A stretch of 64,000 nucleotides of DNA from Robertkochia aurantiaca. Its GTDB lineage: Bacteria > Bacteroidota > Bacteroidia > Flavobacteriales > Flavobacteriaceae. The translations under genes and the position numbers were made by a program. Positions within the stretch are counted from its first letter, which is position 1. Each line of letters opens with the position of its first letter. Below the pieces are notes generated by a model. The model ran no database searches. It was not told the DNA's origin and saw nothing but the letters and a program-made list of their open reading frames with translations. The stretch is from NCBI RefSeq assembly GCF_020166495.1, contig NZ_JAINZS010000007.1, positions 1 to 64,000 on the forward strand, in the 5' to 3' direction. Shown here one piece after another: positions 18,130 through 42,248 of the stretch.

Positions 18130-18185
18130 GGGTTATGGGTTACGGGTTATGGGTTATGGGTTATGGGTTATGGGTTATGGGTTAT
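18130..18185. repeat. GGGTTAT heptamer array (8 copies), left arm of unit A
   Basis: Eight words: GGGTTAT, GGGTTAC, then GGGTTAT six times. The reverse-complement words stand after the following four-helix-bundle gene at 18639-18666. Confidence 0.95.
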
Positions 18186-18239
18186 GAGTTTTAATGTGTA
18201 GATTATTTACTATATTTAGGTCGCTTCAATTATAACGTT

Positions 18240-18581
18240 ATGACTCATAAAGATTTGGATGTATGGAAGCGCTCCATGAAACTCGCCAGAATGATCTATA
18301 AGGAAACTGAAATGTTTCCTGAAAGTGAACAATACGGTTTAAAAAGTCAATTGCGAAGATGCTCTGTTTCAATACCCTCCAATATAGCAGAAGGTGCCGG
18401 CCGCAAAGGAAACAGAGAACTGATACGATTCCTTTATATAGCTCTGGGATCGCTCTCAGAATTGGACACTCAGGTTGAGCTGGCTTACGATCTTTCTTAT
18501 CTAAACTCCCGTAATCCTCTTATTGATGAAATTACAATAATTCGTAAGATGACGTTAAACCTAATAAAGGCTTTGCAGTAA
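18240..18581 (+). CDS. Four-helix-bundle protein A (23S rRNA intervening-sequence protein family)
   Basis: A 113-residue all-helical protein. The family core is clear: HKDLDVWKRS, SQLRRCSVSIPSNIAEGAGR and FLYIALGSLSELDTQ. The family (PF05635 / TIGR02436 type) includes ORFs inside 23S rRNA intervening sequences and the Avd accessory protein of diversity-generating retroelements; members form pentameric barrels that can bind nucleic acid. Its molecular role outside those contexts is unknown. The gene sits between inverted arrays of GGGTTAT words (18130-18185 and 18639-18666). Closest in the window to proteins C and D. Confidence 0.92.
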   Translation: MTHKDLDVWKRSMKLARMIYKETEMFPESEQYGLKSQLRRCSVSIPSNIAEGAGRKGNRELIRFLYIALGSLSELDTQVELAYDLSYLNSRNPLIDEITIIRKMTLNLIKALQ

Positions 18582-18638
18582 CTATCTAATGCAGTTTTGA
18601 GTCGGAATTCATTATAACCCATCCAGGCTCACCCTCTC

Positions 18639-18666
18639 GTAACCCATAACTCATAACCCGTAACCC
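18639..18666. repeat. Inverted heptamer array, right arm of unit A
   Basis: GTAACCC, ATAACTC, ATAACCC, GTAACCC: reverse complements of GGGTTAC, GAGTTAT, GGGTTAT, GGGTTAC. A further ATAACCC is at 18614-18620. Confidence 0.92.
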
Positions 18667-18698
18667 GATCTATAAACCAGTTTCCTGGTTTATAGATC
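18667..18698 (-). terminator. Perfect hairpin at the purD stop
   Basis: GATCTATAAACCAG-TTTC-CTGGTTTATAGATC, a 14-base perfect stem overlapping the purD stop codon. There is no T-run after it on the minus strand, so it may be a processed 3' end rather than a classical terminator. Confidence 0.6.
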
Positions 18699-19961
18699 GA
18701 AACCAATATCCTTTCGATAATAAATCCCGTCAAAACACAATTTCTTCGCGCTGGCATATGATTTATCCAGTGCTTCCCGGTAGTCTTTTCCGAAGGAAGT
18801 AAGGGCGATGACCCGCCCACCGGAAGTTACCACCTTGCCATCGATCTGGCTGGTACCTGCATGAAACACGATAGAGTCTTCAATAGAGTCAAGACCCACG
18901 ATCTCCTTGCCTTTTTCGTATGCTTCAGGGTACCCGCCGGAAACGGTCATAACCGTAGTGGCGGTGCGATCATCGATCTCCAGTTGTACCTCATCCAGGC
19001 GGCCTTCAGCCATAGCATTTAACAGCTCGACCATATCATTCTTAACCCTGGGGATCACCACTTCGGTTTCCGGATCACCCATACGCACATTGTATTCGAT
19101 CACATAAGGGTCGTCACCGACTTTAATGAGTCCGATGAACACGAACCCCTTATAAGGGATATTATCTTCCTTAAAACCGTTTACAGTGGGTTTAATGATA
19201 CGCTCTTCCACCTTTTTCATAAAGGCATCATCTGCAAAGGGAACAGGAGAGATCGCGCCCATACCACCGGTATTGAGTCCGGTGTCACCTTCCCCTATTC
19301 TTTTATAATCTTTAGCGGTAGGCAGGGTGAGGTAATTTTCACCGTCGGTAAGCAGGAACACGCTGAGTTCTATTCCGCTGAGAAACTCTTCGATCACCAC
19401 CTTGGCGCTGGCACTACCGAACTTCTCCCCTACGAGCATGTTTTTAAGTTCGGCTTTGGCCTCATCAATATCATCAAGTATCAACACCCCTTTTCCGGCT
19501 GCCAGTCCGTCTGCCTTGAGCACATAAGGCGGCTTCAGGGTTTCCAGGAATTGAAATCCGGCCTCCAGGCTTTTGGCTGTAAAGCTTTGATAAGCCGCGG
19601 TAGGAATCTTATGGAGGGCCATGAACTCCTTGGCGGCTTCCTTGGAACCTTCAAGGATGGCCCCCGCTTTCTGCGGACCGATCACTTTCACGTGGTTGAT
19701 GGCGTCATCTTTCAGAAAGAAATCATGAATACCCATTACCAGCGGATCTTCGGGGCCTACCACCACCATATCGATCTCCTTTTCGATCACCAGGTTCTTT
19801 ACGGCCTGAAAATCATTGGCAGCCACCGCTATATTGGTCGCTATGCCAGCCGTTCCGGCATTACCGGGAGCCACATAGATATTCTGCGCTTTATCGCTTT
19901 GAGCGATCTTCCAGGTTAAGGTATGTTCTCTCCCGCCGGAGCCGAGAATTAGTATATTCAT
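18690..19961 (-). CDS. purD: Phosphoribosylamine--glycine ligase (GAR synthetase)
   Basis: A 423-residue ATP-grasp enzyme of normal length, joining glycine to 5-phosphoribosylamine in purine synthesis. N-terminal MNILILGSGGREHTL and PGNAGT, the ATP-grasp lysine region VLKADGLAAGKGV (about residue 145), GMGAISPVPF and NVRMGDPETEV are all present. It is flanked on both sides by four-helix-bundle units. Confidence 0.97.
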   Translation of the reverse strand: MNILILGSGGREHTLTWKIAQSDKAQNIYVAPGNAGTAGIATNIAVAANDFQAVKNLVIEKEIDMVVVGPEDPLVMGIHDFFLKDDAINHVKVIGPQKAGAILEGSKEAAKEFMALHKIPTAAYQSFTAKSLEAGFQFLETLKPPYVLKADGLAAGKGVLILDDIDEAKAELKNMLVGEKFGSASAKVVIEEFLSGIELSVFLLTDGENYLTLPTAKDYKRIGEGDTGLNTGGMGAISPVPFADDAFMKKVEERIIKPTVNGFKEDNIPYKGFVFIGLIKVGDDPYVIEYNVRMGDPETEVVIPRVKNDMVELLNAMAEGRLDEVQLEIDDRTATTVMTVSGGYPEAYEKGKEIVGLDSIEDSIVFHAGTSQIDGKVVTSGGRVIALTSFGKDYREALDKSYASAKKLCFDGIYYRKDIGFDL

Positions 19962-20026
19962 GATCTATTAGAATTTTCGTTATGCTTTTAACTCAAAGTT
20001 TATTCATGAACACAAAGGTAAAAAAA

Positions 20027-20054
20027 GGGATTGGTGATTAGGGATTAGGGATTG
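20027..20054. repeat. GGGATTA-type heptamer array, left arm of unit B
   Basis: Four words in register: GGGATTG, GTGATTA, GGGATTA, GGGATTG. The inverted partner follows the four-helix-bundle gene at 20459-20486. Confidence 0.9.
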
Positions 20055-20089
20055 GAGTATTTATATAGATTTTTTTCTATATTAGTCTT

Positions 20090-20455
20090 GTGCATACAAA
20101 CTTTCAAGATCTAAACTGTTGGAAAATGTGCAATCAGTTGAAAGAACTGATTCGCACCGAGGTATTACCTTCTTTACCCAAGGAGGAGCGTTATGATTTG
20201 CATAGCCAAATTTTGAGATCTTCCAGGTCAACTACCGCAAATATAGCAGAAGGATGGGGCAGATACCATTATAAAGAAAACATCAAATTCCTTTATATTT
20301 CCAGGGGTTCCGTAGCAGAAGTCCTCGATCATGCCTTGGAGGCAAAACAATGTGGCTACATCAACCAGGAATTGTTGAATTCAATTAGATCACACTGTGA
20401 GGACTGTATAAGATTGATAAACGGATATATTAGTTATTTAAAGAAAGCTCTTTAA
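20090..20455 (+). CDS. Four-helix-bundle protein B (divergent member)
   Basis: A 121-residue all-helical protein of the same family as proteins A, C and D but from a different branch: it has FQDLNCWKMC, ILRSSRSTTANIAEGWGR and FLYISRGSVAEVLDHALEA. The start is a GTG at 20090; no ATG fits the family N-terminus. Flanked by inverted arrays of GGGATTA-type words. Transcribed toward the polysaccharide operon end and convergent with it. Function unknown; nucleic-acid binding is suggested only by the family. Confidence 0.9.
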   Translation: MHTNFQDLNCWKMCNQLKELIRTEVLPSLPKEERYDLHSQILRSSRSTTANIAEGWGRYHYKENIKFLYISRGSVAEVLDHALEAKQCGYINQELLNSIRSHCEDCIRLINGYISYLKKAL

Positions 20456-20458
20456 TTC

Positions 20459-20486
20459 TAATCCCAAGTCCCTATTCTCTAATCCC
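20459..20486. repeat. Inverted heptamer array, right arm of unit B
   Basis: TAATCCC, AAGTCCC, TATTCTC, TAATCCC: reverse complements GGGATTA, GGGACTT, GAGAATA, GGGATTA. It ends 6 bases before the stop of the WcaJ-type gene. Confidence 0.9.
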
Positions 20487-20491
20487 TGATA

Positions 20492-21832
20492 TCAATACGC
20501 CTTCTCTTCCCCTTTAAACACATTCAACACGGTTTGCACCATGATCTTCAGGTCGAGAGCCATGGACCAGTTCTCCAGATAGAAAATATCGAATTTCACA
20601 CGGTTGATAATATCGGTATCGCTTTCGATCTCACCGCGGTAACCGCGAACCTGGGCTAATCCGGTAATGCCTGGCTTAACAAAGTGCCGAACCATGTATT
20701 TATCGACCATCTGGCTGTACTGTTTGGTATGCAGCACCATATGGGGTCGTGGGCCTACAATAGACATTTGACCAAATAATACATTGTAGAACTGAGGCAG
20801 CTCATCAATACTGGTTTTGCGTATAAACCGTCCGATACGTGTCACACGCATATCTCCTTTGGTAGCCTGCTGTTTATCAGAGTCTGTATTCACGGCCATA
20901 GATCGAAACTTGAGACAGGCAAACTCTTTCGAATTAATCCCATTTCGATACTGTCTGAAAAATACAGGGCCCGGAGACTCCAGACGAATCAATAAGGCTA
21001 CTAACGGGGTGAGCCATGAGAGAACAAAGACAACCACCAGCAGTGAAAAGAAAATATCAAAGGAACGCTTTAATACATAGTTAATGGAATTTTCTAAGGG
21101 GATGTCTCTCAATGAAAGAATTGGGAGGTAATCGTAATAATCGAACTTGAGGCGTTTGTTGTAAATGTATTTATTGTCCGGTATAAACTTAACTACCTTC
21201 AGGTTGTTATCAGCAAAGGCGATGATCTCCTCCAGTTGCTTATTCTTGAGTTCGGCCACCGAGCAATAGATCTCATCTATGTTCTCCTTTTTGACATAGT
21301 CACAGACCTTGTCTATGGAAAAGTCATCTTCATCTGTTGCAAACCTTTTTTTAAATACGAACCCGAACTCCAGCCGTTCCTGAAATATTTTAATTAGCTG
21401 ATCAGTCTTCTTATTCTCTCCAATCACTATGGTGGTTCTGCGATTTCCTCCAATTACCTCGCGGTATCTTTGGAGTAGATAGTATACCAAAATTTTAAAG
21501 AATGAAACTAATATAAAGCAAGCGAGAAAATACTGGCCTAATAATAGCCTGCTGATCATATTTTCTTTAAAGAAACCTATAAAGGCATACAATACCAAGA
21601 AGAAGAATACAAACTGCCTGAAAAGCAAGGATAACACGAGTGGGATTTTCGTATAACGCTCAACCTCGTAGAAGTGATTTCTTACTGAAATTACTATCCA
21701 ACTGAAGGTCAGATAGAAAAAGAATAGTATCGGATTATGAAGCCTTATTGGTAGAAAATATGCCAATAGCAATATCACGCTTAAATCTATAGCGTAAGAA
21801 ATAGGCTTTAAAAATCCGGAAAATCTTTTCAT
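20492..21832 (-). CDS. Undecaprenyl-phosphate sugar phosphotransferase (WcaJ-type), initiating enzyme
   Basis: About 446 residues from ATG at 21832; a 14-residue longer frame would overlap the upstream gene and lacks family similarity. The N-terminal half has four to five membrane helices and a Rossmann-like CoA-binding-type domain; the C-terminal half is the bacterial sugar transferase domain (KRSFDIFFSLLVV, RQYRNG, CLKFRSM, KTSIDELPQ, MSIVGPRPH, KPGITGLAQVRGYRGE). It loads the first sugar phosphate on the lipid carrier at the inner membrane. Last gene of the long minus-strand polysaccharide operon. Confidence 0.93.
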   Translation of the reverse strand: MKRFSGFLKPISYAIDLSVILLLAYFLPIRLHNPILFFFYLTFSWIVISVRNHFYEVERYTKIPLVLSLLFRQFVFFFLVLYAFIGFFKENMISRLLLGQYFLACFILVSFFKILVYYLLQRYREVIGGNRRTTIVIGENKKTDQLIKIFQERLEFGFVFKKRFATDEDDFSIDKVCDYVKKENIDEIYCSVAELKNKQLEEIIAFADNNLKVVKFIPDNKYIYNKRLKFDYYDYLPILSLRDIPLENSINYVLKRSFDIFFSLLVVVFVLSWLTPLVALLIRLESPGPVFFRQYRNGINSKEFACLKFRSMAVNTDSDKQQATKGDMRVTRIGRFIRKTSIDELPQFYNVLFGQMSIVGPRPHMVLHTKQYSQMVDKYMVRHFVKPGITGLAQVRGYRGEIESDTDIINRVKFDIFYLENWSMALDLKIMVQTVLNVFKGEEKAY

Positions 21833-21842
21833 AAACGAGAAA

Positions 21843-22754
21843 TTAAGCTTTGTACATCTTCGAAAGCAACTCAATTAGTGGAATGGGTTTTATTTTTTCA
21901 CCTAGTAAGTCATAAAGTTTATCGGTGGAACCTTTTAATATTTCGATTTCATTTTTACGAACAAATGATGGATTTACCTTTACATTGATTTCATGGCCTG
22001 CTATCTTATTCATTTCCTGAAGAATTTCCTTAATATTAATAGCATTGTTTGAAGAAACGTTGACGATCTCAGAACTAACAGTCGAATTCATCAATTGAAT
22101 GTAACAATCTATAACGTAGGCTATATCGTTAAACTCTCGGTAAACATCAATATTGCCGAGTTCAATGTTTCTTTCTCTCCTTTTATAGTGTGAAACTATT
22201 TTTGGTATCAAAAATTTTTCATCCTGTCCAATCCCCGTATAATTGAAAGGTCTTACTATAATGATATTCTGAGTATCAAAATAGTGGCGGACCATATTCT
22301 CCATTACCAACTTACTATTCCCATAGTGATTTACAGGTAATGGACACATTTTCTCATCCAAAGAGCCACTTCTCCTTCCGTAAATTGCGGCACTACTGGC
22401 GATTATTATTTTAGCTGGAATGTAATCGAGACTATCAACTGCATTCAACAAATTTATACTGCCAAAGATATTCACACGATATATTAAATCCTGATCTTCA
22501 CTAGCAACAAAAGAAATTGCTGCAAGATGAAAAATATAATCAGGGCGAACATCCTTAAGAGTTGTCAGCAAAGAATCCTCGTCTAAAATATCGCACTTTA
22601 TATGATTATTTGAATTAGGATTTGAAAGTGTTGTTCCAAACACTTCAAATCCTAATTGCTTTAATTTGGCTTCCAGATAAACACCTGTGAAACCCGTTAT
22701 ACCAGTAATAAAAACTTTACCTTTAGAACGTACTTCCATTTTGATTCCTTTCAA
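21843..22754 (-). CDS. NAD(P)-dependent sugar reductase/epimerase (GDP-4-keto-6-deoxymannose reductase, RMD-like)
   Basis: A 303-residue extended SDR enzyme. NAD(P) motif [17 protein letters not shown], the SSAAIYG serine loop and the catalytic YGNSK are present. It directly follows gmd and overlaps it, so the likely reaction is reduction of GDP-4-keto-6-deoxy-D-mannose to GDP-D-rhamnose. An alternative ATG at 22739 reduces the overlap and may be the true start. A different 6-deoxyhexose product (for example talose) cannot be excluded. Confidence 0.82.
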
Positions 22755-23757
22755 TGTCTTTTTTCACCATCATCTCACATAACTCTCTGAGAGTGGTCTT
22801 AGGCAACCAATCTAACATTTCGTGGGCTTTACTGGCGTCACCAATCAATAGATCTACCTCCGCAGGTCTATAGAATTTAGGATTTACCTGAACCAGTTTT
22901 TTGCCAGATTTGGCATCTATACCCTTTTCATCTTCTCCTGTTCCTTCCCACTCAATGTTCACATCTATTGCTTGAAAGGCCATACTTACGAAATCTCTTA
23001 CCGTTCTGGTTTGATTAGTGGCTAGCACAAAAGTTCCGGGCTTATCAATTTGCAACATTTTATACATTCCTTCCACGTATTCCTTTGCATATCCCCAATC
23101 CCTTTTTGCATCTAAATTCCCAAGTTCAAGTAAATCCTGTTTTCCTAGCTTTATCTTCGCTACAGCATCACTTATTTTCCTTGTTACAAATTCCTTTCCG
23201 CGAAGAGGTGACTCATGATTAAATAAAATACCACTTGTTGCAAAAAGATCATAGGATTCCTGGTAATTTAAGGTTGCCCAATGAGCAAATACCTTAGCTA
23301 CACCATAGGGACTTCTTGGATGAAATGGAGTGTCCTCATTTTGTGGTATCGCATGTACCTTTCCGAACATTTCGGAAGTAGATGCCTGATAGAATTTGAT
23401 CCTAGGGTTTATAGATCTGATTGCCTCTAAAAGATTCAATGCACCTATTCCTGTGATCTGTGCTGTAGCTACCGGCTGGGTAAATGAAACCCCTACAAAA
23501 CTCTGTGCCGCCAGATTGTAAATTTCATCGGGCTCCACTTGACTAATTATTCTATAAGCACTTGAAAGATCAACCAAATCATACTCTAGCAACTCTAAGT
23601 TTGGATGATCATTAATCCCTAATTCTTCAATTCTCCAAAAGTTAGTGGAACTTGTTCTTCGATATGTGCCAAATACCTTGTAACCCTTATTTAAAAGTAA
23701 ATCCGCTAAATAAGCCGCATCTTGACCTGTAATGCCAGTAATTATTGCTTTTTTCAT
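22723..23757 (-). CDS. gmd: GDP-mannose 4,6-dehydratase
   Basis: A 344-residue SDR enzyme converting GDP-D-mannose to GDP-4-keto-6-deoxy-D-mannose. The signature [47 protein letters not shown] and the [16 protein letters not shown] block are intact. The substrate comes from ManC at the head of the same operon. ATG and the stop of the upstream gene nearly coincide (23757). Confidence 0.95.
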
Positions 23758-24908
23758 TAATTCTGCTCTAATTTCCAGTTTCTATATAATTTATCAATTA
23801 ATTCTTTGAATTCGGATTCGAATCTCTCAGTTCTAAATCTTAAGGCATTATCTCTGATAACATTTTTATCAAATCTACTTTCTACCTGTTCAAAACAATT
23901 TAATGATTCTATTAATGATTCTTCCGTTTGCTCTTTGAAAAACACCCCAGAATAACGTTCTACTTCAATATTCTGCTGTGGATAAAAACCGTTAATTGTT
24001 TCTAATGCACCACCAGCTCCATAAGCAATTACTGGAACACCGCAAGCTTGGGCTTCAACGGGAGCAATTCCAAAATCCTCTTCCGCTGCAAAAATAAAAG
24101 CTCTTGACTCTTTCAATAGTTTAAGCATTTGATCCTTTTCAACAAAACCCAATAATTGTACGTTTTCAGAAGCAATTCGTTTGATTTTATCATACTCAGG
24201 TCCGTCTCCAATTACTATTAACTGTCTATCAGTGCCAGATAATGCTCTTACAATTAAGTCAATCTTTTTATACGGCACCATTCTAGAACAGGTTATATAA
24301 TAATTCTTAGTGACTTCACTAATATTAAAATTGGAAGTATCAACGGGAGGGTAAATTACGAACGCCTCCTTGTTATAAGTTTTCTTTATTCTTTTGGCTA
24401 TGTAATTTGAAATAGCTATATAGTAGTCCGGCCTATTTGCTGTAATCAAATCCCAAACTCTCAACTTATGTAAGAAATATTTTGCCAAGAATCCTTTGAA
24501 ACCACTTTCCAATCCACTCTCTTTTAAATACTGAAAGTGAAGATCCCAAGCATAGCGAACGGGTGAATACATATATACAATATGAAGCTGATTGTGATTG
24601 GTCAATACACCTTTAGCGACTGAAGAAGAAGAAGAAATTATAAGCTCATAATCTCGTAGGTCTAATTGCTCTATTGCCAATGGAAATAATGGCAAATAAT
24701 TTCTATACCTCTTCTTCCCGAAAGGTAAATTTTGAATAAATGAAGTTTGGACTTTTTTTCCTTTTAAAATTGTTTTTCTATCACTTTCGTTAAGGTCATC
24801 GACAAGTGAAAAAACATCGAAATCTTCCCATAAATTAATAAAACTTTCAACACATCTTTCAGCGCCACCATATACAGTAAACCAATCGTGAACTAAAGCT
24901 TTCTTCAT
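23757..24908 (-). CDS. Glycosyltransferase family 4
   Basis: A 383-residue GT-B enzyme. N-terminal [18 protein letters not shown] is typical of mannosyltransferases such as WbaZ. The C-terminal half has the donor-binding [27 protein letters not shown] motif (E-x7-E). It probably adds mannose or a GDP-derived deoxysugar to the growing repeat unit, given gmd next door. The stop/start overlap with its upstream neighbour is 4 bases, suggesting coupling. Confidence 0.9.
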
Positions 24909-25954
24909 TTGCTATCAATATTTTCTAAAATTCTGAATATTTTTTTTGCACTCTTACCCCAATTAAAATCCGAAATATTAGATTCTTTAATATTTTTTGG
25001 ACTAACCAAAGATTTATGGATTTTATTTGCCATATCCTCAACATCATGGGGGTCAAAGTAGTATGCTGAAGATCCGCATACTTCATGAAATACGGGAATG
25101 TCTGAAACACAAACTGGTACCCCCATGCTCATTGCTTCGATTATGGGAATACCGAAACCTTCATAAAAACTAGCGAAAACAAATAATTTAGCACCCTTAT
25201 AATAATCTACAAGCTCATTATCACTAATGTTTTCCAAGAACCTAACATTATCAACAGTTTTATAGTCAATATTTGAATTAAAATTATTGTTATTATTCCC
25301 GATTATATATAAAAATAAATCTTCTTGAGACATTAAATTAAATGCAGAAATTAAATTCTTAAAATTCTTTCTAGGGTGATGTGAAGAAACCGTAAGAATA
25401 TAATTTTTATTATTCCCGTGACTCTTGTCTTTATCCTCAGTTATTCTAAATATTTTAGAAGGTGCATTATAAACAACGCTTATTTTCTCTTCAATTATTC
25501 CAAGTTCATTAATTAGTTCCATTTTCGAATACTCACTCACAGTTAAAATGTGTTTAGACAACTTAGCCAACTTGGGGATTAAAAAATTGTAGTAAAGTGA
25601 AAACTTCTTGGAATACCATTCTGGGTGTTTTCTAAAACCCAAATCATGAATTGTTATTACTTGAGTCAAGCAAAGTAGAGGTCCTGTATTGCACAATGAT
25701 AATAATAAGCACTTTTCCTTTTTAAGATAAATCATTAGGTCAAATTGTTCCCAGGAATGACCGACAAACGTACCAATGATCTTGACATTAAATTTTTTAG
25801 CCAATCCCCAATGAATAATGTTCTTGGGCGCTACAACCTCCACATTTTTTGATTGACATAAAATAGCTGTAATTTCTGAAGCAAATCTCTGTACTCCAGT
25901 AATTGGCTGGGAAAGAAATCTTCCATTAATGATTATCTTGTTTTTTGATGGCAT
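24905..25954 (-). CDS. Glycosyltransferase family 4
   Basis: A 349-residue GT-B enzyme with INGRFLSQPITGVQRFASE at the N-terminus and FASFYEGFGIPIIEAMSMGVPV, the E-x7-E donor site, near residue 265. The sequence GVQRFA... is the hallmark of mannosyl/rhamnosyl GT4 enzymes of capsule loci. Donor and acceptor are unknown. Base composition is AT-rich like the rest of the cassette. It overlaps the O-antigen ligase-like gene by 29 bases. Confidence 0.9.
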   Translation of the reverse strand: MPSKNKIIINGRFLSQPITGVQRFASEITAILCQSKNVEVVAPKNIIHWGLAKKFNVKIIGTFVGHSWEQFDLMIYLKKEKCLLLSLCNTGPLLCLTQVITIHDLGFRKHPEWYSKKFSLYYNFLIPKLAKLSKHILTVSEYSKMELINELGIIEEKISVVYNAPSKIFRITEDKDKSHGNNKNYILTVSSHHPRKNFKNLISAFNLMSQEDLFLYIIGNNNNNFNSNIDYKTVDNVRFLENISDNELVDYYKGAKLFVFASFYEGFGIPIIEAMSMGVPVCVSDIPVFHEVCGSSAYYFDPHDVEDMANKIHKSLVSPKNIKESNISDFNWGKSAKKIFRILENIDSK

Positions 25955-31636: not shown

Positions 31637-32165
31637 ACATCTTTAGATTGTCCAATTTTTTATAATGTTCAATATCCCTTTCACCAATCTTCTTTAAGCC
31701 AGATAGCCCCATTATGGCATACTCTGGTATTTTACCGTGCACTATACAGCCTGCTCCAATTATTGCACCTTCTCCAATTTTTGATCCTGGTAGAATTGTT
31801 ACTCCAATACCAATCCAAACATTTCGTTCAATCATAACACTTTTGAAAGTAAAGGAATCATCGTAGGGTAATTTGGCGCCTTTATAATTGTGGTTGTGGG
31901 TGTAAATGGTGACGTTCCGTGCAATATGAGTATTTTCACATATTTTAAGTCCTCCTTCTCCCCGGATAAAAGCACCTTCACCGATATGGACATTATCTTC
32001 TAATACAATATTAGATAAACCAGTAATTTTAGAAACTCCATTGAACCTTACTCCCTTTCCAACACTTTTACATTCACTTTTATAACGATGCGAATAGTAA
32101 GAATTAAGAGACTTTTTAGATATTTTTTCCAAAATACTGAATATAAAGCCAATCAATCGCCACAT
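31614..32165 (-). CDS. Left-handed beta-helix acyltransferase (WcaF/CysE-like)
   Basis: A 183-residue hexapeptide-repeat protein: IVLEDNVHIGEGAFIRGEGG, THIARNVTIYTHNHNY and IERNVWIGIGVTILPGSKIG repeats, ending GAGCIVHGKIPEYAIMGLSG. The HNHNY histidine is the usual catalytic base. Probably O-acetylates a polysaccharide sugar. Follows the flippase gene by 2 bases. Confidence 0.88.
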   Translation of the reverse strand: MWRLIGFIFSILEKISKKSLNSYYSHRYKSECKSVGKGVRFNGVSKITGLSNIVLEDNVHIGEGAFIRGEGGLKICENTHIARNVTIYTHNHNYKGAKLPYDDSFTFKSVMIERNVWIGIGVTILPGSKIGEGAIIGAGCIVHGKIPEYAIMGLSGLKKIGERDIEHYKKLDNLKMYGKVDGK

Positions 32166-32167
32166 AC

Positions 32168-33439: not shown

Positions 33440-33478
33440 TCAATTATTACTAAAACCAAAGAATATTTACTTTTTCAC

Positions 33479-35513
<2,035 letters not shown>

Positions 35514-35517
<4 letters not shown>

Positions 35518-36089
35518 TTAATTCTTTTTAAGTTATTGTTCTCCAATTGGTATTCTTGTCCACTCTCAGGACATATCCCAACCTTATGTTCATTAAAATC
35601 GAGCCTATGACCATATTCACTCACCCAACCTATCTGTTTTGCGGGATTTCCTACCAATAATGCATACGGTAAAACGTCCTTTGTGACAACAGCTCCAGCA
35701 CCTATGAGTGCATACTCTCCGATAGTATTCCCGCACACAACCGTGGCATTAGCTCCAATTGAAGCCCCCTTCTTGACTAAAGTCTGAACATAACTACCCT
35801 TCCTCACTACCGCACTTCTAGGATTAAGAATGTTGGTGAACACCATTGATGGACCTAAAAAAACATCATCCTCGCAAATTACACCGGAATACACTGAAAC
35901 GTTATTTTGAATCTTAACATTACTGCCTAATATCACCTTTGGCGATATCACAACATTTTGGCCAATGTTACAATTTTCTCCAATCCTTGAGTCAGACATA
36001 ACATGGGAAAAATGCCAGATTTTCGTCCCTTCACCAATTACGCAGCCATCATCAATATAGCTACTTTCATGAGAAAAAAATTTTAACAT
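35514..36089 (-). CDS. wbpD: WbpD-type UDP-amino-sugar N-acetyltransferase
   Basis: A 191-residue left-handed beta-helix protein: IGEGTKIWHFSHVMSDSRIG, NVKIQNNVSVYSGV, FTNILNPRSA, VCGNTIGEYALIGAGAVVTK. The HFSHV and FTN...PR elements are typical of WbpD/WlbB enzymes that acetylate the 3-amino group with acetyl-CoA. Product would be UDP-2,3-diacetamido-2,3-dideoxyglucuronate. Confidence 0.92.
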
Positions 36090-36091
36090 AA

Positions 36092-37369
36092 TTAAAGTCT
36101 TGCAGTTACTTTATCCTTAGGAAAAAAGCTCTTAATATCATAAACAACAGATGTAGGATTTCTTTTTAAATCCTCGATATTTAATTCCCGAAATTCTTCA
36201 TGACCAACTGCCATAACAATTGCGTCATATGTTTGATTCAAGTTTTTAAGAAGTTCAATTCCGTACTCTCTTTTTACCTCGACAGGAGAGGCATGTTTAT
36301 CATACACATCCACTGTAACACCAAATCCTTCCAGCTCCTGAATCATATCTATAACACGAGAATTTCTAATGTCTGGACAGTTCTCCTTAAAAGTTATTCC
36401 TAAAACCAATACTCGAGACCTCTTAACTTTTAATTCATGTTTGACCATTAATTTTATGACATTATTAGCTACAAAAATACCCATATTATCATTGATCCTT
36501 CTTCCCGACAATATGACTTGAGGATGATATCCCACACTTTCCGCTTTGTGGGTAAGGTAGTAGGGATCGACACCGATACAATGCCCTCCAACCAGTCCAG
36601 GTCTAAAGGGTAAAAAATTCCATTTTGTTCCAGCTGCCTCAAGAACCTCCACAGTATCAATTCTTAATTTATCAAAAATAAGGGCTAATTCATTAACTAA
36701 AGAAATGTTTAAATCTCTCTGAGTGTTTTCAATAATCTTAGACGCTTCCGCAATCTTTATAGAAGAAGCCTTATGAGTGCCCGCCTTGACAATCGAACTA
36801 TATAACTCATTAACGAGCTCTGCAGTTTCTGGGGTACTTCCAGACGTTACTTTAACAATGTTATGTACCCGATTCACCTTATCTCCAGGATTTATTCTTT
36901 CCGGTGAATAACCGCAGAAAAAATCTTCGTTAAATTTTAGGCCGCTAACTTCTTCCAAAACAGGAACACAATCCTCCTCAGTACAACCAGGATAAACCGT
37001 TGACTCATAAATCACAACATCATTCTTTTTAAGATACCTTCCAACTGTTCGACTTGCGGAAAGCAAAGGTTTAAGATCTGGTTGTTTAAATCGATCTATT
37101 GGAGTTGGAACTGTAATAATAAATACCGTACATTCCCTTAGCGTGCTTTCATCATTAGAATATGAGATGTTCTTAAGGTTTTTTAAATCTATTTCTTCAA
37201 CTTCATCGGTTATATCCCTACCATTGTTTAGGTCCTTAATCCTATTTTGATCTATATCAAACCCTAATACCTGAAAGTTGTTTTTTGCAAATTCAACGGC
37301 GAGAGGCAGTCCTACATAGCCCAGACCGACAATTGCAATTTTTGAATCTTTCAAACTTCTATTTCTCAT
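36092..37369 (-). CDS. UDP-N-acetylhexosamine 6-dehydrogenase (WbpA/WbpO/TviB type)
   Basis: A 425-residue nucleotide-sugar dehydrogenase. NAD motif IAIVGLGYVGLPLAVEF, TVPTPIDRFKQPDL, YESTVYPGCTEEDCVP, ENTQRDLNISLVNELA and the catalytic cysteine in GLVGGHCIGVDPYY are all intact. By sequence it is closest to the TviB/WbpO group; with wbpB, wbpE and wbpD following, it most likely makes UDP-GlcNAcA from UDP-GlcNAc. Stop and start overlap ManC by 4 bases. Confidence 0.93.
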   Translation of the reverse strand: MRNRSLKDSKIAIVGLGYVGLPLAVEFAKNNFQVLGFDIDQNRIKDLNNGRDITDEVEEIDLKNLKNISYSNDESTLRECTVFIITVPTPIDRFKQPDLKPLLSASRTVGRYLKKNDVVIYESTVYPGCTEEDCVPVLEEVSGLKFNEDFFCGYSPERINPGDKVNRVHNIVKVTSGSTPETAELVNELYSSIVKAGTHKASSIKIAEASKIIENTQRDLNISLVNELALIFDKLRIDTVEVLEAAGTKWNFLPFRPGLVGGHCIGVDPYYLTHKAESVGYHPQVILSGRRINDNMGIFVANNVIKLMVKHELKVKRSRVLVLGITFKENCPDIRNSRVIDMIQELEGFGVTVDVYDKHASPVEVKREYGIELLKNLNQTYDAIVMAVGHEEFRELNIEDLKRNPTSVVYDIKSFFPKDKVTARL

Positions 37370-38355
37370 TTGTCGTATTTTTTAAACAACTTTTTAACCA
37401 ATTGTGACTCCCCTTTAGGCAGAATTAAAATTTTATTATCTACCTGAACAACGTTTAAATTTTCTATTCCAACTCCTAGAAATTCCATATCACCATAACA
37501 ATCCACGTTTCGTACTTCAAGCCCTTTTAAGGGCTTAACGCTCTCGTTGTCTCCGAAAGAATTGAAGTATTTAAAAAATGCATCGAAACTTCCTAAATCA
37601 TTCCATTCAAAATCAGCAGCTACAGTCTTTATTATTGCAGATTTTTCAAAAACTGCGTAATCGACACTATCTTCCGGAATTTCTCTCATCAGATCTGCTG
37701 TTACTCCACCTTGGAAAGCCCTTTGCGTCTTTTCAAAAATATCAGGACTGTGTTTTTGAAGCTCTGACAAAAACAATCCCGCCTTAAAACAGAACATGCC
37801 ACTGTTCCAATAGAAATTACCCTTCTCCAAGAACTGTTTGGCTGTTTTTTCATCCGGTTTTTCTCGGAAGCTTATTACCCTATCACCAACGAATTCGATA
37901 TAACCAAAACCCGTTTCCGGATGTTCCGGTTTGATAGAGAATGTTACCAGGAAATTGTCTTTTGCCAGTTCGATTGCGCGATTCACCACTTGAGTATATG
38001 CTAACCCTTCTCCGATCATGTGATCACTTGGTGTCACAAACAAAATATCCTCTGGATCCACCGAAAAAGCTGCCAGTGCAATCGCCGGAGCCGTGTTCCT
38101 GGGTACAGGCTCTAAGACGACATGATCAAAGGAACGATCTAACTCCTGAATCTGCTCCTTTGCTATTTCGTAATGCTTCTCATTTGTAAGGATCATCAGC
38201 GCATCCACCAGGTCCTCATTTCTTTTCACTGTGTGCTGGAACAAAGATCGATTATCAAAAATCTTCAGGAATTGTTTTGGGTTCTCAGGAGTTGACAAAG
38301 GCCATAGCCTGGTACCAAATCCCCCACTTAATATGGTATTTATGATTCTTGGCAT
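37366..38355 (-). CDS. manC: Mannose-1-phosphate guanylyltransferase
   Basis: A 329-residue nucleotidyltransferase without the C-terminal isomerase domain of longer ManC proteins. ILSGGFGTRLWPLSTPENPKQF is the pyrophosphorylase signature; VTPSDHMIG, FREKPDEKTAKQF and WNSGMFCFKA follow as expected. It makes GDP-mannose, substrate of Gmd in the same operon. First gene of the operon, 34 bases downstream of a TTTG-N19-TATTTTTG promoter. Confidence 0.94.
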   Translation of the reverse strand: MPRIINTILSGGFGTRLWPLSTPENPKQFLKIFDNRSLFQHTVKRNEDLVDALMILTNEKHYEIAKEQIQELDRSFDHVVLEPVPRNTAPAIALAAFSVDPEDILFVTPSDHMIGEGLAYTQVVNRAIELAKDNFLVTFSIKPEHPETGFGYIEFVGDRVISFREKPDEKTAKQFLEKGNFYWNSGMFCFKAGLFLSELQKHSPDIFEKTQRAFQGGVTADLMREIPEDSVDYAVFEKSAIIKTVAADFEWNDLGSFDAFFKYFNSFGDNESVKPLKGLEVRNVDCYGDMEFLGVGIENLNVVQVDNKILILPKGESQLVKKLFKKYDK

Positions 38356-38389
38356 GCTGTATTATCGTAGGTTAAAGATTCTTAAGCGG

Positions 38390-38420
38390 CAAAAATACGA
38401 TAAGACTTGAGGTTGACAAA
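38390..38420 (-). promoter_or_regulatory. Promoter at the head of the polysaccharide operon
   Basis: Minus strand TTTG (38420-38417), 19 bases, TATTTTTG (38397-38390): both Bacteroidota elements at standard spacing, 34 bases before the manC ATG. No other clear promoter is seen before the genes down to 20492, whose starts mostly overlap or abut the preceding stops. Confidence 0.75.
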
Positions 38421-38896
38421 TATTTTCTATGTTAATGTTTACGGGTGTTAAGTTAGAAGTTGGGGATTGTTTTCGTGAATCGTGAGTCGGGAGTCGGGAG
38501 TGATGAAATGTAAACTCTGGATAACTGATAATGTTTTAAGTTAAAGGTTGCAAGCTAGAGGTTAAAAGTTGGTGTTGAGGATCTGTGATTTGTTATTCGT
38601 AAGAAGGGAAATGAGCAACTTAAATACCGGATAACCCTTAACAAGTTAACTAGATAACATACTGATTTAGAAGTTAAATGCTAGAGGTTAAAAGTTGGTG
38701 TTGGTTAATTAGGTGAGTTGGGTGAATTGGGTGATTGGAGATTCGTGAGTCGGGAGTCGGGAGACGTTAGACGTTAGACGTTAGACGTTAGACGTTAGAC
38801 GTTAGACGTTAGACGTTAGACGTTAGACGTTAGACGTTAGACGTAAAATGAAAAAAATATTCATGCCTTTGAAAATTAAAGGACTAACGTGGTTGA
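38421..38896. other. Repeat-built spacer upstream of the operon promoter
   Basis: No gene. Word runs include GTGAATC/GTGAGTC/GGGAGTC heptamers (about 38475-38500 and 38745-38763), GATAACCC-type octamers (about 38629-38668), two copies of the phrase ATGCTAGAGGTTAAAAGTTG (first copy slightly diverged, near 38560; second near 38670), GTGAGTTGG-type nonamers and the ACGTTAG array. Confidence 0.8.
38764..38844. repeat. ACGTTAG heptamer array (11 perfect copies)
   Basis: Eleven uninterrupted identical copies of ACGTTAG (38764-38840) plus ACGT. It is one of the two longest perfect arrays here, and its lack of mutations suggests recent growth. Confidence 0.97.
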
Positions 38897-39703
38897 TTAT
38901 GAGGTTACATCAAGAACTGAATATCGAGGCCGTTCTGCTTTCAGATCCAGGTCGGTGGTTTTAATCGGGATGATGGTGGTATGTAAACCGTTTTCCTCAA
39001 GGGTCGATTGAGCGAATTCAAACCAACTCATGGGACCTCCGTCACTGAAATGCTTTATACCAAAATCCTGGGGAGTATGTCTAATAAGTTTAACTAAGTA
39101 ATCTGACAAGGCTTTTGTGTTTGTAGGGCGACCGGTCTGATCGTCAACCACACTTAAAGCTTCACCTTTCCGAGCCTTTTCTACAATAGTTCGATAGAAG
39201 TTTTTCCCAAACTCCTTACTGTATAACCAGGAAACCCGAACGATAAAATAATGCTCCATAATGGCCTGCACATATTGCTCCCCTTTAAGTTTGGATTGAC
39301 CATATACATTCAAGGGATTAGGTTGATCGGTTACCTTATAAGGCTCTCTCTTCATCCCGTCGAATACGTAGTCAGTGGATATATGAATAAGAATGGTACC
39401 ATTAGTCTTACACGCTTCTGCCAGGTTTTTTACGGCTTCAGCATTTATTGTAAATGCCTTTTCCCGTTCTTCTTCAGCCTTGTCTACCGCAGTATAGGCT
39501 GCGCAATTGATGCAATAATCCGGTTTATATCTCTCAAAAACCTTTTCCACTTCATCCCGGTTTGTAATATCCAATTCTTCTTTGCTGCAGAACACCCATT
39601 CCAGATCTGAGTTCTCTTCGTGATATTTACGAAGGGTCAGGGCCAGCTGAGAGGCGGAGCCGGTGACAAGGATAGTGGGGATATGGGTGTTATTGTGAGT
39701 CAA
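38897..39703 (-). CDS. rfbD: dTDP-4-dehydrorhamnose reductase
   Basis: A 268-residue SDR enzyme, the last step to dTDP-L-rhamnose. ELDITNRDEVEKVFERYKPDYCINCAAYTAVDKAE, HISTDYVFDG, YGQSKLKGEQ and RVSWLYS are intact across the protein. The nucleotide motif is degenerate (TGSASQLA where GxxGQLG is usual). The start is a TTG at 39703; an in-frame stop lies just upstream and no ATG is available. The C-terminus is slightly shorter than usual. Confidence 0.9.
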   Translation of the reverse strand: MTHNNTHIPTILVTGSASQLALTLRKYHEENSDLEWVFCSKEELDITNRDEVEKVFERYKPDYCINCAAYTAVDKAEEEREKAFTINAEAVKNLAEACKTNGTILIHISTDYVFDGMKREPYKVTDQPNPLNVYGQSKLKGEQYVQAIMEHYFIVRVSWLYSKEFGKNFYRTIVEKARKGEALSVVDDQTGRPTNTKALSDYLVKLIRHTPQDFGIKHFSDGGPMSWFEFAQSTLEENGLHTTIIPIKTTDLDLKAERPRYSVLDVTS

Positions 39704-39740
39704 TGGATTTTAGGGTTTGGATTATGCAAATATAGGATAT

Positions 39741-39782
39741 GTTAGAGGTTAAAAGTTAGATGCTAGAAGTGAAAAGTATAAA
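39741..39782. repeat. GTTAGAG-type heptamer array, left arm of unit C
   Basis: Six words in register: GTTAGAG, GTTAAAA, GTTAGAT, GCTAGAA, GTGAAAA, GTATAAA. The stretch AAAAGTTAGATGCTAGAAGT recurs near 46692, where no such gene follows. Confidence 0.92.
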
Positions 39783-39832
39783 CGAGTAATTTTGTAGTAT
39801 ATTTTCTATATCTTTGTGTGAAACATGGAAAT

Positions 39833-40174
39833 ATGGATTCACATAAAGATTTAAGGGTTTATAAACGATCTATTGAATTGGTTAAGATCATTTATAAAAT
39901 AACTGAAAGTTTTCCTGAGACAGAGAAATATGGCCTGGCTTCCCAAATGAAACGATGTGCCATTTCTGTTCCATCGAACATAGCGGAAGGAAGCGCCAGA
40001 AAATCCAGAAAAGAGCTAAGACAATTCCTTTATATCTCTTTGGGTTCCTTATCTGAATTAGACACTCAGATACACATAGCACAAGAACTCAATTTCACAC
40101 CTGCTGATAACGGCCTCCAATCTCTTGTTAATCATATAAAAGCGATGCTTATAAATCTAATTAAGAGCATATAA
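39833..40174 (+). CDS. Four-helix-bundle protein C
   Basis: About 113 residues from the ATG at 39833 (a GTG at 39818 would add five residues with no family similarity). Family blocks: HKDLRVYKRS, SQMKRCAISVPSNIAEGSAR, FLYISLGSLSELDTQ. Lies between rfbD and rfbC, on the opposite strand to both, flanked by inverted heptamer arrays (39741-39782 and 40210-40307). A TATCTTTG -7 box at 39810-39817 precedes it. Inserted by its position in an otherwise co-directional sugar cluster. Confidence 0.92.
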   Translation: MDSHKDLRVYKRSIELVKIIYKITESFPETEKYGLASQMKRCAISVPSNIAEGSARKSRKELRQFLYISLGSLSELDTQIHIAQELNFTPADNGLQSLVNHIKAMLINLIKSI

Positions 40175-40209
40175 AATTAAAATAAGTACCTGCGTAAAGT
40201 ACTATCAGC

Positions 40210-40307
40210 TTCAACCTTTTAACCTCTAACCTCTAGCCTCTGACCTCTACCTTTTAACATTTAGCTTCTAACATTTAGCTTCTAGCTTATTACATCCAAC
40301 TTTCAAC
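40210..40307. repeat. Inverted heptamer array (14 words), right arm of unit C
   Basis: TTCAACC, TTTTAAC, CTCTAAC, CTCTAGC, CTCTGAC, CTCTACC, TTTTAAC, ATTTAGC, TTCTAAC, ATTTAGC, TTCTAGC, TTATTAC, ATCCAAC, TTTCAAC. Reverse complements match the left-arm vocabulary (GTTAGAG, GCTAGAG, GTTAAAA, GTTAGAA). It runs 5 bases into the rfbC stop region. Confidence 0.93.
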
Positions 40308-40851
40308 TTCCCAAAACTTCACTCATACGCGGTAACAACAGATCCTTCTCAGATAAGATCAATTCGTCTTTGGGAAGCTCCCATTCGATAGCGAGCTCCG
40401 GGTCATCATAGATAATGCCTGCTTCTGCTTCAGGGGCATAATAGGCATCACACTTATAAGAAAAAATAACCTCGTCTGTTAACGCCAGGAATCCATGGGC
40501 GAATCCCCTTGGAACAAACAACTGAACTCCGCTTTGGGCATCGAGGATCAGTGAATGCGCCTTTTTATAGGTAGGTGAATCCGCCCTCAGGTCTACGACT
40601 ACATCCTGTACCCTTCCCTTCAGCACATGCACCAGTTTCGCCTGGGCATGTACTCCCTTTTGAAAGTGCAACCCTCTTAAAACTCCCTTTTTTGATACGG
40701 ACAGGTTGTCTTGAACAAACTCGGTTTCCAATCCTGTTACAGACTGAAAACGCTTCTTATTGAAGGACTCCAGGAAATAGCCCCGGTTGTCTCGGTAGAT
40801 GTCAGGTTGGAGGAGGAAGCAGTCTGATAAGGGTGTGGGAATTATTTTCAT
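40303..40851 (-). CDS. rfbC: dTDP-4-dehydrorhamnose 3,5-epimerase
   Basis: A 182-residue cupin enzyme. NRGYFLESFNKKRF, FVQDNLSVSKKGVLRGLHFQ with the catalytic histidine, KLVHVLKGRVQDVVVDLR and FVPRGFAHGFLAL are all present. Second-last step of dTDP-L-rhamnose synthesis. A TATTTTTG box lies at 40888-40895 within a short R/Y array pair. Confidence 0.96.
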   Translation of the reverse strand: MKIIPTPLSDCFLLQPDIYRDNRGYFLESFNKKRFQSVTGLETEFVQDNLSVSKKGVLRGLHFQKGVHAQAKLVHVLKGRVQDVVVDLRADSPTYKKAHSLILDAQSGVQLFVPRGFAHGFLALTDEVIFSYKCDAYYAPEAEAGIIYDDPELAIEWELPKDELILSEKDLLLPRMSEVLGS

Positions 40852-40858
40852 GCAGGTT

Positions 40859-40934
40859 AGACGTTAAATGTTAGAGGTTAAAAGTCACAAAAATATCGAA
40901 ATAAACTTCTTTTAACTTTTCACTTTTAACCTTT
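40859..40934. repeat. Short R/Y word pair around the rfbC promoter
   Basis: Left words GTTAGAC, GTTAAAT, GTTAGAG, GTTAAAA; right words TTTTAAC, TTTTCAC, TTTTAAC, CTTTTCAC; core of about 25 bases holding CAAAAATA (minus-strand -7 box TATTTTTG, 40888-40895). Confidence 0.75.
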
Positions 40935-41795
40935 TCACTTAATTAACCTTAAAAGATACTCCCCATACCCGCTCTTCATCAGCGGCTTTGCTAGTTTACG
41001 CAACTGGTCGTTATCGATATACCCCATGCGCCAGGCTGCTTCTTCGATACATCCCACTTTAAGGCCCTGCCGGTCTTCGATCACCTGTACGAACTGAGAG
41101 GCCTGCATGAGTGACCTGAACGTCCCGGTGTCCAGCCAGGCGGTTCCCCGGTCCATAATACTCACCTTTAAGTTTCCCTGGTCCAGATAATATTTATTGA
41201 CATCGGTGATCTCAAGCTCTCCACGCGAACTCGGTTTTATATTTTTTGCAATCTCCACCACATCATTATCGTAAAAATATATTCCCGGTACAGCAAAGTT
41301 CGATCTTGGGTATTCCGGCTTTTCTGCAATGGAAATCGCCCTGCCCTTATCATCAAATTCGACCACTCCATATCGCTGAGGATCGTTCACGTGATAGGCA
41401 TAGACCACCCCTCCATCGGGATCATTGTTGCTTTGCAGCAGATCGGCCAGGCCCGAACCGTAAAAGATATTGTCCCCCAGAATCAGGGCTACCTTTTCAT
41501 TCCCAATAAACTCTCTTCCAACCCGAAAAGCATCTGCCAGCCCGCGTGGTTCTTCCTGTACGGCATACTCGAAACTGCACCCAAGTTGGGAACCATCACC
41601 CAGTAATTCTCTGAACAATTCCTTATCAGAGGGGGTAGTAATGATCAGGATCTCCCGTATTCCGGCATACATCAAGGTTGATAACGGGTAATAGATCATG
41701 GGCTTATCATAGACCGGCATGAGTTGCTTACTAACTGCCAGGGTCAAGGGATGTAATCGGGAGCCGGTACCTCCGGCGAGGATGATGCCTTTCAT
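40935..41795 (-). CDS. rfbA: Glucose-1-phosphate thymidylyltransferase
   Basis: A 286-residue nucleotidyltransferase making dTDP-glucose. [63 protein letters not shown] and the [15 protein letters not shown] block are complete. Shares the cluster with rfbB, rfbC and rfbD. Confidence 0.97.
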
Positions 41796-41802
41796 TTTGG
41801 TG

Positions 41803-41834
41803 GTTATCTTGTTATCGAGTTATGATGTTATCCA
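41803..41834. repeat. GTTATCNN octamer array, left arm of unit D
   Basis: Four octamers: GTTATCTT, GTTATCGA, GTTATGAT, GTTATCCA. The period is 8 here, not 7. The inverted partner is at 42217-42248. Confidence 0.88.
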
Positions 41835-41850
41835 TTGGGAAAATAAGACT

Positions 41851-42195
41851 TTATAATGAGCTTATCAATTTTATGATCATTCGACGGATATAAATGATCT
41901 TGTCAAATGGTGCATGCCCTCTGCTAAGGTATTTAAGTCTGACAGAGATTTCAAATTGTGTTTCCACCTCTGAAAGTGAGCCTAAAGCCAAATATAAAAA
42001 TCTGGATAGTTCCTTATTGCCTTTTCTGCCACAACCTTCGGCAATATTGGAAGGAACCGAGATCGCTCCTCGTCTCAGTTTTGAGGTCAATCCATACAAT
42101 TCTTCTTTAGGAAATTCCTTAGTCAGTGCATAGACCTTTTCAACCAGATCTATCGATTCATTCCACACCCTCAGATCCTTATGAGATTTTATCAT
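41851..42195 (-). CDS. Four-helix-bundle protein D
   Basis: A 114-residue all-helical protein: HKDLRVWNES, SKLRRGAISVPSNIAEGCGR, FLYLALGSLSEVETQ. It is transcribed with the neighbouring rfb genes on the minus strand, between rfbA and rfbB. Flanked by inverted octamer arrays of the GTTATC type. Very similar to proteins A and C, so these three are probably recent paralogues or repeated arrivals. Confidence 0.92.
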   Translation of the reverse strand: MIKSHKDLRVWNESIDLVEKVYALTKEFPKEELYGLTSKLRRGAISVPSNIAEGCGRKGNKELSRFLYLALGSLSEVETQFEISVRLKYLSRGHAPFDKIIYIRRMIIKLISSL

Positions 42196-42216
42196 AAAAT
42201 TAGATTAATCCCAAAC

Positions 42217-42248
42217 AAGATAACTCATAACAGGATAACAACATAACA
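42217..42248. repeat. Inverted octamer array, right arm of unit D
   Basis: ATAAC occurs at 42220, 42227, 42235 and 42243 (steps 7, 8, 8) within AAGATAACTCATAACAGGAT and following. Reverse complement gives GTTATC/GTTATG words matching the left arm. An imperfect palindrome TGTAGAATTTAATCTACA follows at 42251-42268. Confidence 0.85.

Follow-up and report, generated by a model that had tools for sequence, protein, structure and literature searches.

Four short genes in a 64,000-nucleotide stretch of Robertkochia aurantiaca (contig NZ_JAINZS010000007.1, positions 1 to 64,000; "the window" means this whole stretch) each lie between two arrays of a 7- or 8-nucleotide word, with one array inverted relative to the other. 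As an original prediction from the letters of the window had claimed, all four belong to PF05635, the "23S rRNA intervening sequence protein" family (S23 or S23p; hereafter, intervening-sequence protein or IVP): the profile matches score 99.7-125.1 bits (cut-off 33.8), and TIGR02436 also matches all four (97.7-123.5 bits, cut-off 24). It is near certain that IVP genes are associated with inverted arrays. We propose, with a probability of roughly 0.58, a two-part selfish system that has PF05635 genes as its coding members and that resembles RAYT/REPIN but is built on a protein that is not a transposase.

Inverted word arrays around IVP genes

Using our own detector, we found that the arrays on the two sides of IVP genes 1 to 4 (Table 1) have 17, 5, 16, and 4 6-mers in common in inverted orientation and none in direct orientation. 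The claim of matched inverted arrays at all four genes thus stands, but arrays are not confined to these genes (see below). The four units lie between protein genes, not inside a 23S rRNA gene.

We surveyed 197 IVP genes from relatives in the order, from Bacteroidota, and from 80 named records of many phyla. Inverted arms (matched arrays on the two sides of a gene) reached scores of at least 24, 28, 32, and 40 in 81%, 71%, 59%, and 33% of these genes (139 of 197 at 28 and 116 of 197 at 32). If arms were cross-paired at random, then 12%, 4.2%, 2.1%, and 0.5% of 3,000 pairings reached these scores; for direct arms of the same 197 genes, the rates were 20%, 15%, 12%, and 8.6%. Among 396 non-IVP genes in the same fetched loci (any gene less than 400 bp from an IVP match was left out), the rates were 8.8%, 2.0%, 0.5%, and 0.5%, or 8 genes at 28 and 2 genes at 32. 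One of these two is rfbA of the relative G002 (score 73), which is itself flanked by word arrays. The thresholds of 28 and 32 were fixed after we had looked at the flanks, so we report 24 and 40 as well. The original prediction had expected matched arrays to be commoner around IVP genes than around other genes, and had named family members without arrays, or the same arrays around unrelated genes, as what would speak against it; we found that most family members have inverted arms and that other genes rarely do.

The best arm lag was 7 in 94, 8 in 36, and another value in 9 of the 139 arm pairs, and the lag profile was the same in the Flavobacteriales and all-phyla sets. The constant polarity that had been described in the window, with the G-rich strand pointing into the gene, holds beyond this genome: among the 105 IVP genes with an arm score of at least 34, the 5' arm has more G than C in 96 and less in 7. 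Inverted arms with scores of at least 28 flank 13 of 18 IVP genes on viral contigs, 7 of 12 on plasmids (mostly cyanobacterial), 22 of 27 from Cyanobacteriota, and 33 of 34 from Xanthomonadaceae or Rhodanobacter (14 of 34 before we redefined the 3' flank of the Xanthomonadaceae genes, on seeing an open frame run past the array, as a slightly longer stretch without a size-matched control). The words appear to have a rotating shape of core and variable positions, which we read by eye. The sole test of this shape is a correlation of position conservation between arms: the constrained positions are common to both (0.39, versus -0.06 if rotated).

In the Xanthomonadaceae loci (L328-L360), the open frame often extends across the 3' array, and the tail of the IVP may thus include translated words. 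In 16 of these loci, the IVP gene precedes an accC-like start and, judging by sequence, follows accB. On a plasmid of Nostoc edaphicum (L314, 1495-1863), an IVP gene with GGGAGTA arms lies between two genes for ribonucleotide reductase subunits, on the opposite strand.

The IVP protein is under purifying selection: the ratio of nonsynonymous to synonymous rates (dN/dS) is 0.07-0.14 in the five pairs with a finite dS, and dS was saturated in three others. In an AlphaFold2 model, protein 3 of the window is predicted to be a four-helix bundle (helices at 8-24, 35-55, 59-85, and 95-112; predicted local distance difference test 96.9, predicted template modelling score 0.89). Solved relatives, as identified by sequence, are 2gsc (XCC0516 of Xanthomonas, with five chains) and 2rld. 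The isoelectric point is above 8 for 126 of 199 IVP proteins. No catalytic domain was matched in the IVP protein.

Words, sites, and gene-less arrays

IVP genes within a single genome have different words, and these depend in part on the protein clade. In the protein tree (90 IVP sequences, with few columns and many open forks), the site labels cluster (17 changes, versus 31.3 if shuffled; 0 of 200 shuffles were as low). The protein at the purD site of G003 is sister to the protein at the rfbD/rfbC site of R. aurantiaca (G000; support 97/83). The tree requires at least two IVP origins at the fadJ/thiolase site, and the G001 member nests among proteins from the thiolase/acyl-CoA-dehydrogenase site. 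Three sister IVPs at one site (99/89) have the words GGGTAGAC, GGGGATGT, and GGGAAAGA, with matching words in the two arms of each unit; their group also takes in a fourth protein, whose gene is at a different site. Proteins at orthologous sites can be 60-63% identical while their words differ. A six-member clade (98/80) that is found in several contexts is CAGT-rich throughout, with 6-16 copies versus a mean of 0.98 elsewhere; at least 5 copies occur in 7 of 196 other IVP genes. These comparisons suggest that words travel with the clade and are renewed in concert on both sides. The idea that the host genome dictates the words is rejected or weakened: IVP genes at different sites of one genome share words at about the level seen between genomes (0.044 and 0.048, among proteins with under 35% identity).

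IVP units are present in some genomes and missing from others at orthologous junctions. The purD site is occupied in G000, in G003, and in G001, where the IVP gene is broken (split over two frames). Empty sites, which the original prediction had suggested looking for, are common in relatives: 16 of 18 purD loci have no IVP within 1.5 kb, and 17 of 19 rfbC loci lack one. Among the seven rfbC-locus flanks that we inspected, the rfbA/rfbC junction is short and free of arrays in G001 and G004; it holds a gene-less inverted pair in G002 (by eye) and G000, and an IVP unit in G003. At nine IVP-less junctions between fadJ and thiolase or between thiolase and acyl-CoA dehydrogenase, we found five gene-less inverted pairs, two single arrays, and two with nothing. 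As judged by eye, the gene-less pair in G009, G028, G032, and G042 shares its word type with the IVP unit of the other fadJ-region junction, and the word of the gene-less pair in G010 resembles that of another IVP in G010. Across genomes, the family is absent from 20 of 60 (the genome of R. aurantiaca being one of the 60), and PF05635 genes are present in 157 of 198 sampled Bacteroidota, 35 of 79 Xanthomonadaceae (none in 44), and 40 of 79 Cyanobacteriota. We also considered near-identical IVP copies (on Calothrix brevissima plasmids and in G387), which lie in longer homologous blocks and are uninformative about the borders of the unit.

Dispersed copies of the IVP word, and gene-less units with common inner boundaries, go beyond the original prediction. 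We called arrays (threshold 14) in 264 kb, which comprises the window and ten 20-kb stretches of its own genome (at round-number positions that we picked), and found 33 arrays with period 7 and 21 with period 8, versus 0 and 0 in a single second-order Markov copy. The window is richer in arrays than the other ten stretches. If seven further loci from this genome are added, then of the 10 pairs of neighbouring arrays that enclose an IVP gene, 9 are matched in inverted orientation and none in direct orientation. For the 9 pairs around another gene, 2 are inverted, 1 is direct, and 6 are unmatched; for the 41 pairs with no gene between them, the counts are 5, 9, and 27. Thus, arrays per se are common in this genome, while it is uncommon for a gene to lie within a matched inverted pair. 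The genome (3.43 Mb in 11 contigs) has 14 matches to PF05635, of which 11 are above the cut-off, and 8 full-length IVP genes were taken into the later gene set. Seven further PF05635 matches, several of them broken or partial, are clustered in a word-rich stretch (G000:C3:504287-519717), which is possibly a graveyard or nursery of units.

The words of IVP arms are specifically coupled to the repeats across the genome. Using 40 usable gene-less arrays from stretches of nine genomes (23 of these arrays are from R. aurantiaca), we found that they share 5.7 8-mers with IVP arms of the same genome and 1.7 with those of other genomes (p = 0.005), or 2.85 and 0.96 if rarefied to three IVP genes. Three tandem copies of the gene 1 word (GGGTTATx3, as in its 5' arm) occur at 8 places in the R. 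aurantiaca genome, including that arm, and are absent from all 59 relatives, of which four are congeneric. At least 100 matches to GGGANTNx3 were found in 17 of 35 Xanthomonadaceae genomes with IVP and in 1 of 44 without (p = 4.7e-9, ignoring phylogeny). All 9 Xanthomonadaceae genomes in which both arms are GGGA.T. have 206-610 matches, and 16 of the other 70 have at least 20; 4 genomes with GTGA.T. arms have 28-602 matches, and 5 of the other 75 have at least 20. The 1 genome with AGGGCT. arms has 79 matches, versus at most 2 in the other 78. We took AGGGCT. from the arms of L341 when a reversed-pattern control had already shown that G288 was rich in a related pattern, so this last test was not fully blind.

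Gene-less units are best seen in Xanthomonadaceae. Among the matches listed, all 18 pairs of opposite-strand arrays with less than 300 bp between them face inward (counted from hand-thinned coordinates, with some neighbouring hits of one array omitted, in six genomes, with two words pooled in G295). On both sides, 17 gene-less units have a common inner boundary, G..A.AGCG (GnnAnAGCG), with 5.5 bits of information, of which 2 bits are from a leading G that partly follows from where the word match ends; interior 9-mers as a control have a mean of 1.25 bits and a maximum of 2.37. The outer boundary ends in CC. The inner motif is also found in several IVP units (GCAAGAGCG, GCAACAGCG), so gene-less and coding units share an inner boundary in this family. 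No homology links the bodies of the 17 units (136 pairwise scores, with a median of 16 and a maximum of 30), so plain copy-and-paste of one body is rejected or weakened.

The window itself has one gene-less inverted pair (Table 1), whose two halves have 6 inverted and 0 direct 6-mers in common. Its first array has 13 6-mers in common with the 5' array of IVP gene 3, and the pair has 19 8-mers in common with the arms of that gene.

Table 1. IVP genes and associated word arrays in the window.
Feature	Positions	Strand	Description
Dispersed array of gene 1 word	15561..15581	+	away from any IVP gene
5' array of IVP gene 1	18129..18190	+	word GGGTTAT, period 7
IVP gene 1	18240..18581	+	PF05635, 113 amino acids, 125.1 bits; between purD and a small open reading frame (ORF)
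3' inverted array of IVP gene 1	18640..18667	-	ATAACCC
5' array of IVP gene 2	20029..20053	+	word GGGATTA
IVP gene 2	20090..20455	+	GTG start, 121 amino acids, 99.7 bits
3' inverted array of IVP gene 2	20462..20490	-	TAATCCC type
5' array of IVP gene 3	39730..39782	+	words GTTAGAG/GTTAAAA
IVP gene 3	39833..40174	+	120.9 bits; alternative GTG start at 39818; between rfbD and rfbC (rfb genes by Pfam)
3' inverted array of IVP gene 3	40209..40309	-	words GTTAGAG/GTTAAAA, inverted
Gene-less inverted array pair	40856..40934 (40856-40890 + 40909-40934)	.	between rfbC and rfbA; word type of IVP gene 3
3' array of IVP gene 4	41803..41831	+	period 8, GTTATCNN
IVP gene 4	41851..42195	-	115.1 bits; between rfbB and rfbA; IVP gene at the same site in G010
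5' array of IVP gene 4	42227..42249	-	ATAACAgg/ATAACAac, period 8
Dispersed array of gene 1 word	46977..47011	+	
Dispersed array of gene 1 word	47175..47209	+	

Close to its start, each IVP gene of the window has a TAGA-n-TCTATA dyad (18199-18214, 20063-20082, 39795-39810, and 42252-42269). It is between the 5' array and the gene for IVP genes 1-3 and outside the 5' array for gene 4, and it also precedes many IVP genes of the same genus. The dyad overlaps a TAnnTTTG-like sequence, which we take to be the promoter, and is possibly an operator.

We also note composite clusters of several array types at 46691-47283, 43424-43785, 52102-52567, 9858-10454, and 3811-4248, including a block (AACCAATCACAAATCCC...CCAGCTATCGGCTATC) that is repeated three times, around 46831, 47034, and 47232. 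A perfect array with period 9 (GGTGAGTTT, 5.9 copies, 13400-13452) is unlike the 7-8-nucleotide words elsewhere. The single open frame of 3129 codons at 54358-63747 adjoins a PorP/SprF-type gene and probably encodes a large secreted protein.

A candidate selfish system and its rivals

We propose that a coding unit would consist of a short gene and, on its two sides, inverted arrays of a degenerate 7-8-nucleotide word, with the G-rich strand inward. Arrays of this word that lack a gene, whether single or in inverted pairs, would be its non-coding partners elsewhere in the genome, as REPINs are to RAYT. The small and mostly basic four-helix protein, probably a pentamer like its relative 2GSC, would bind its own word where this forms arrays, either in DNA hairpins or in RNA. 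By this binding it would maintain word-ended units, spread them slowly, and renew their words fast and in concert. As the IVP has no known catalytic domain, the cutting, copying, and joining would be supplied by host replication or recombination, or by an enzyme that is encoded elsewhere. We infer that the protein binds its word, that units move, and that cause runs from the protein to the arrays. The original prediction of an IVS-like unit (IVS, intervening sequence) with word-built ends, as a candidate mobile or repeat-making system, draws support from the arm survey, its controls, and the empty sites.

A wider version is more doubtful: PF05635 proteins could be what drives a class of selfish elements that is as yet undescribed. 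Such elements would lack their own transposase and still write arrays of short private words and renew them, perhaps because the protein steers how hairpin DNA or RNA is copied at these arrays. If so, the heptamer repeats of xanthomonads, cyanobacteria, and flavobacteria would be the non-coding footprint of this class, and the 23S rRNA IVS would be a case that landed in an rRNA gene.

Several observations weigh against a mobile two-part system. We did not find a target-site duplication, as the flanks of empty sites were too short or too diverged to read one; we found no recent duplicate of a unit (the closest pair of IVPs within a genome is 70% identical); and no mobility enzyme or transposase was found among the 24 window ORFs that we scanned with Pfam. 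Direct arms are better than inverted arms in 16 of the 197 IVP genes, and 8 of these 16 also have inverted arms with scores of at least 36 in 450-nucleotide flanks, a length without its own control. Mismatches between arms show no preference for G.U (208 compatible with wobble versus 239 of the A.C type, p = 0.16). The correlation of word with protein over unrelated sites, from pairs of genes in different genomes without homologous neighbours, is weak (rho = 0.104, with 5 of 1,000 permutations as high). Five Xanthomonadaceae genomes that lack IVP have 25-105 matches to GGGANTNx3, and one has 27 matches to GTGANTNx3; also, genomes of the same genus are not independent data points in these counts, and the leading G of the inner boundary is partly built in. 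Finally, the GGGAATC repeats of Xanthomonas are reported to occupy places that are better conserved than those of controls, to be mostly of one type when two species are compared, and to have in general no link with mobile elements (PMC4692102), so any spread must be slow. Such conserved places fit slow spread as well as an iteron-like regulator, which is one of the two chief rivals; the other is an IVS that acts through RNA processing.

The IVP could be a DNA-binding regulator or chromosome organiser, with the arrays as iteron-like sites for autoregulation and a regulon, and with slippage and selection instead of movement. Besides the conserved places of the Xanthomonas repeats (PMC4692102), the constrained word positions that are common to both arms, the purifying selection, and the mostly basic protein would all be expected. 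Yet words change at orthologous sites whose proteins are 60-63% identical, which would be hard if many functional sites had to change together. A regulator also does not account for IVPs that are missing from the same junction in relatives, or for the absence of the family from 20 of 60 and 44 of 79 genomes, and arrays of operators would not need the common inner boundaries of gene-less units. We consider this explanation unlikely.

Alternatively, the arms might pair in the transcript, RNase III might cut the stem, and the IVP region would leave a polycistronic mRNA, with the words as stem material. The IVS of Coxiella has a 28-bp terminal stem with heptamers, an S23p ORF, and excision by RNase III (PMC4990558). 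The arms of IVP genes are inverted, many units are inside gene pairs on the same strand, and the order of words is partly collinear between arms (mean score 41.5, versus 33.6 if word order is shuffled; clearly so in 30 of 120 genes). Selection for a stem in the sense RNA is rejected or weakened by the lack of a G.U excess, though, and neither the genes with better direct arms nor the dispersed cognate arrays are explained, so this seems quite improbable to us.

Quasi-palindrome correction is a known process, and a neutral account would have slippage-prone heptamer tracts expand, template switching homogenise the inverted copies, and IVP genes hitch-hike. It is already disfavoured and, we believe, very improbable: heptamer tracts without IVP genes are common in R. 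aurantiaca and are known from other bacteria (PMC4692102, PMC4679880), but matched inverted arms hardly ever flank other genes (2 of 396 at 32), and the repeats are coupled to the word of the resident IVP.

Known systems and significance

A close anatomical parallel is the 23S rRNA IVS, which has the same protein family and terminal inverted repeats around an S23p ORF. The 5' end of the Coxiella IVS has tandem heptamers (GACAGAT) whose number varies between strains (PMC4990558). The anatomy of the unit is already present in this founding type of IVS: an S23p ORF, inverted ends, and tandem heptamers. In contrast to the IVS, the units described here lie between protein genes, and each has a private word that is dispersed over the genome.

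Like RAYT/REPIN, the two-part system that we propose has a gene flanked by inverted cognate repeats, with non-coding inverted doublets elsewhere in the genome; both have a single-copy gene with its own repeat type and a strong vertical component (PMC3116915). However, all four proteins match PF05635 and no tyrosine (HUH) transposase family is among their matches, and the repeats are non-palindromic tandem 7-8-mers instead of 20-40-bp palindromes (PMC3116915). Unlike for RAYT/REPIN, we saw no transposition intermediate for IVP units. Because the transposase and the palindromic REP are missing, we do not consider the IVP system to be a member of RAYT/REPIN.

The fold is homologous to that of Avd, the four-helix protein of diversity-generating retroelements (PMC10053308), and protein 3 has weak matches to bAvd (24.3 bits, cut-off 40) and Avd (25.1 bits, cut-off 80). 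In agreement with the original prediction, no reverse transcriptase was found in the 24 window ORFs that were scanned, and no template or variable repeat was recognised.

Cyanobacteria have intergenic heptamer arrays with a patchy distribution, the short tandemly repeated repetitive sequences (STRRs). The TAACTGA repeats of Beggiatoaceae, Cyanobacteria, and Bacteroidetes are similar, as intergenic heptamer arrays with an unexplained patchy distribution (PMC4679880; we compared the repeats alone). The GGGAATC repeats of Xanthomonas and the GGGGA(C/T)T repeats of Nostoc (PMC4692102) have the same words with a degenerate core, and they flank Xanthomonadaceae IVP genes in our data. That study treats them as G-quadruplex repeats, and it reports 70 and 75 inward (convergent) GGGAATC pairs per Xanthomonas genome and heterogeneous (GGGANTN)n. 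The terms "S23" and "XCC0516" are absent from the main text of PMC4692102, as are "23S", "S23", and "four helix" from the main text of PMC4679880. A literature search, with subscription journals and preprints outside its scope, listed no paper that links PF05635 or S23p genes with dispersed heptamer repeats.

Eighteen IVP genes have been reported in cas operons (PMC3936711); these may be inserted units rather than parts of the immune system. We note two IVP genes between cas6 and cas4, on plasmids of Anabaena sp. 90 (L316, 1495-1863; inverted arms, score 54) and Pseudanabaena galeata (L319, 1501-1860; direct arms, score 138).

Our results give a genomic context to a widespread protein family with no known function, and a concrete candidate gene partner, testable word by word, to heptamer repeats that have long been described without a cause. 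Several bacterial repeats that have been known for long but not explained may have their missing partner in the IVP protein. If the IVP recognises its word, then there would be many natural pairs of protein and word from which to work out a specificity code.

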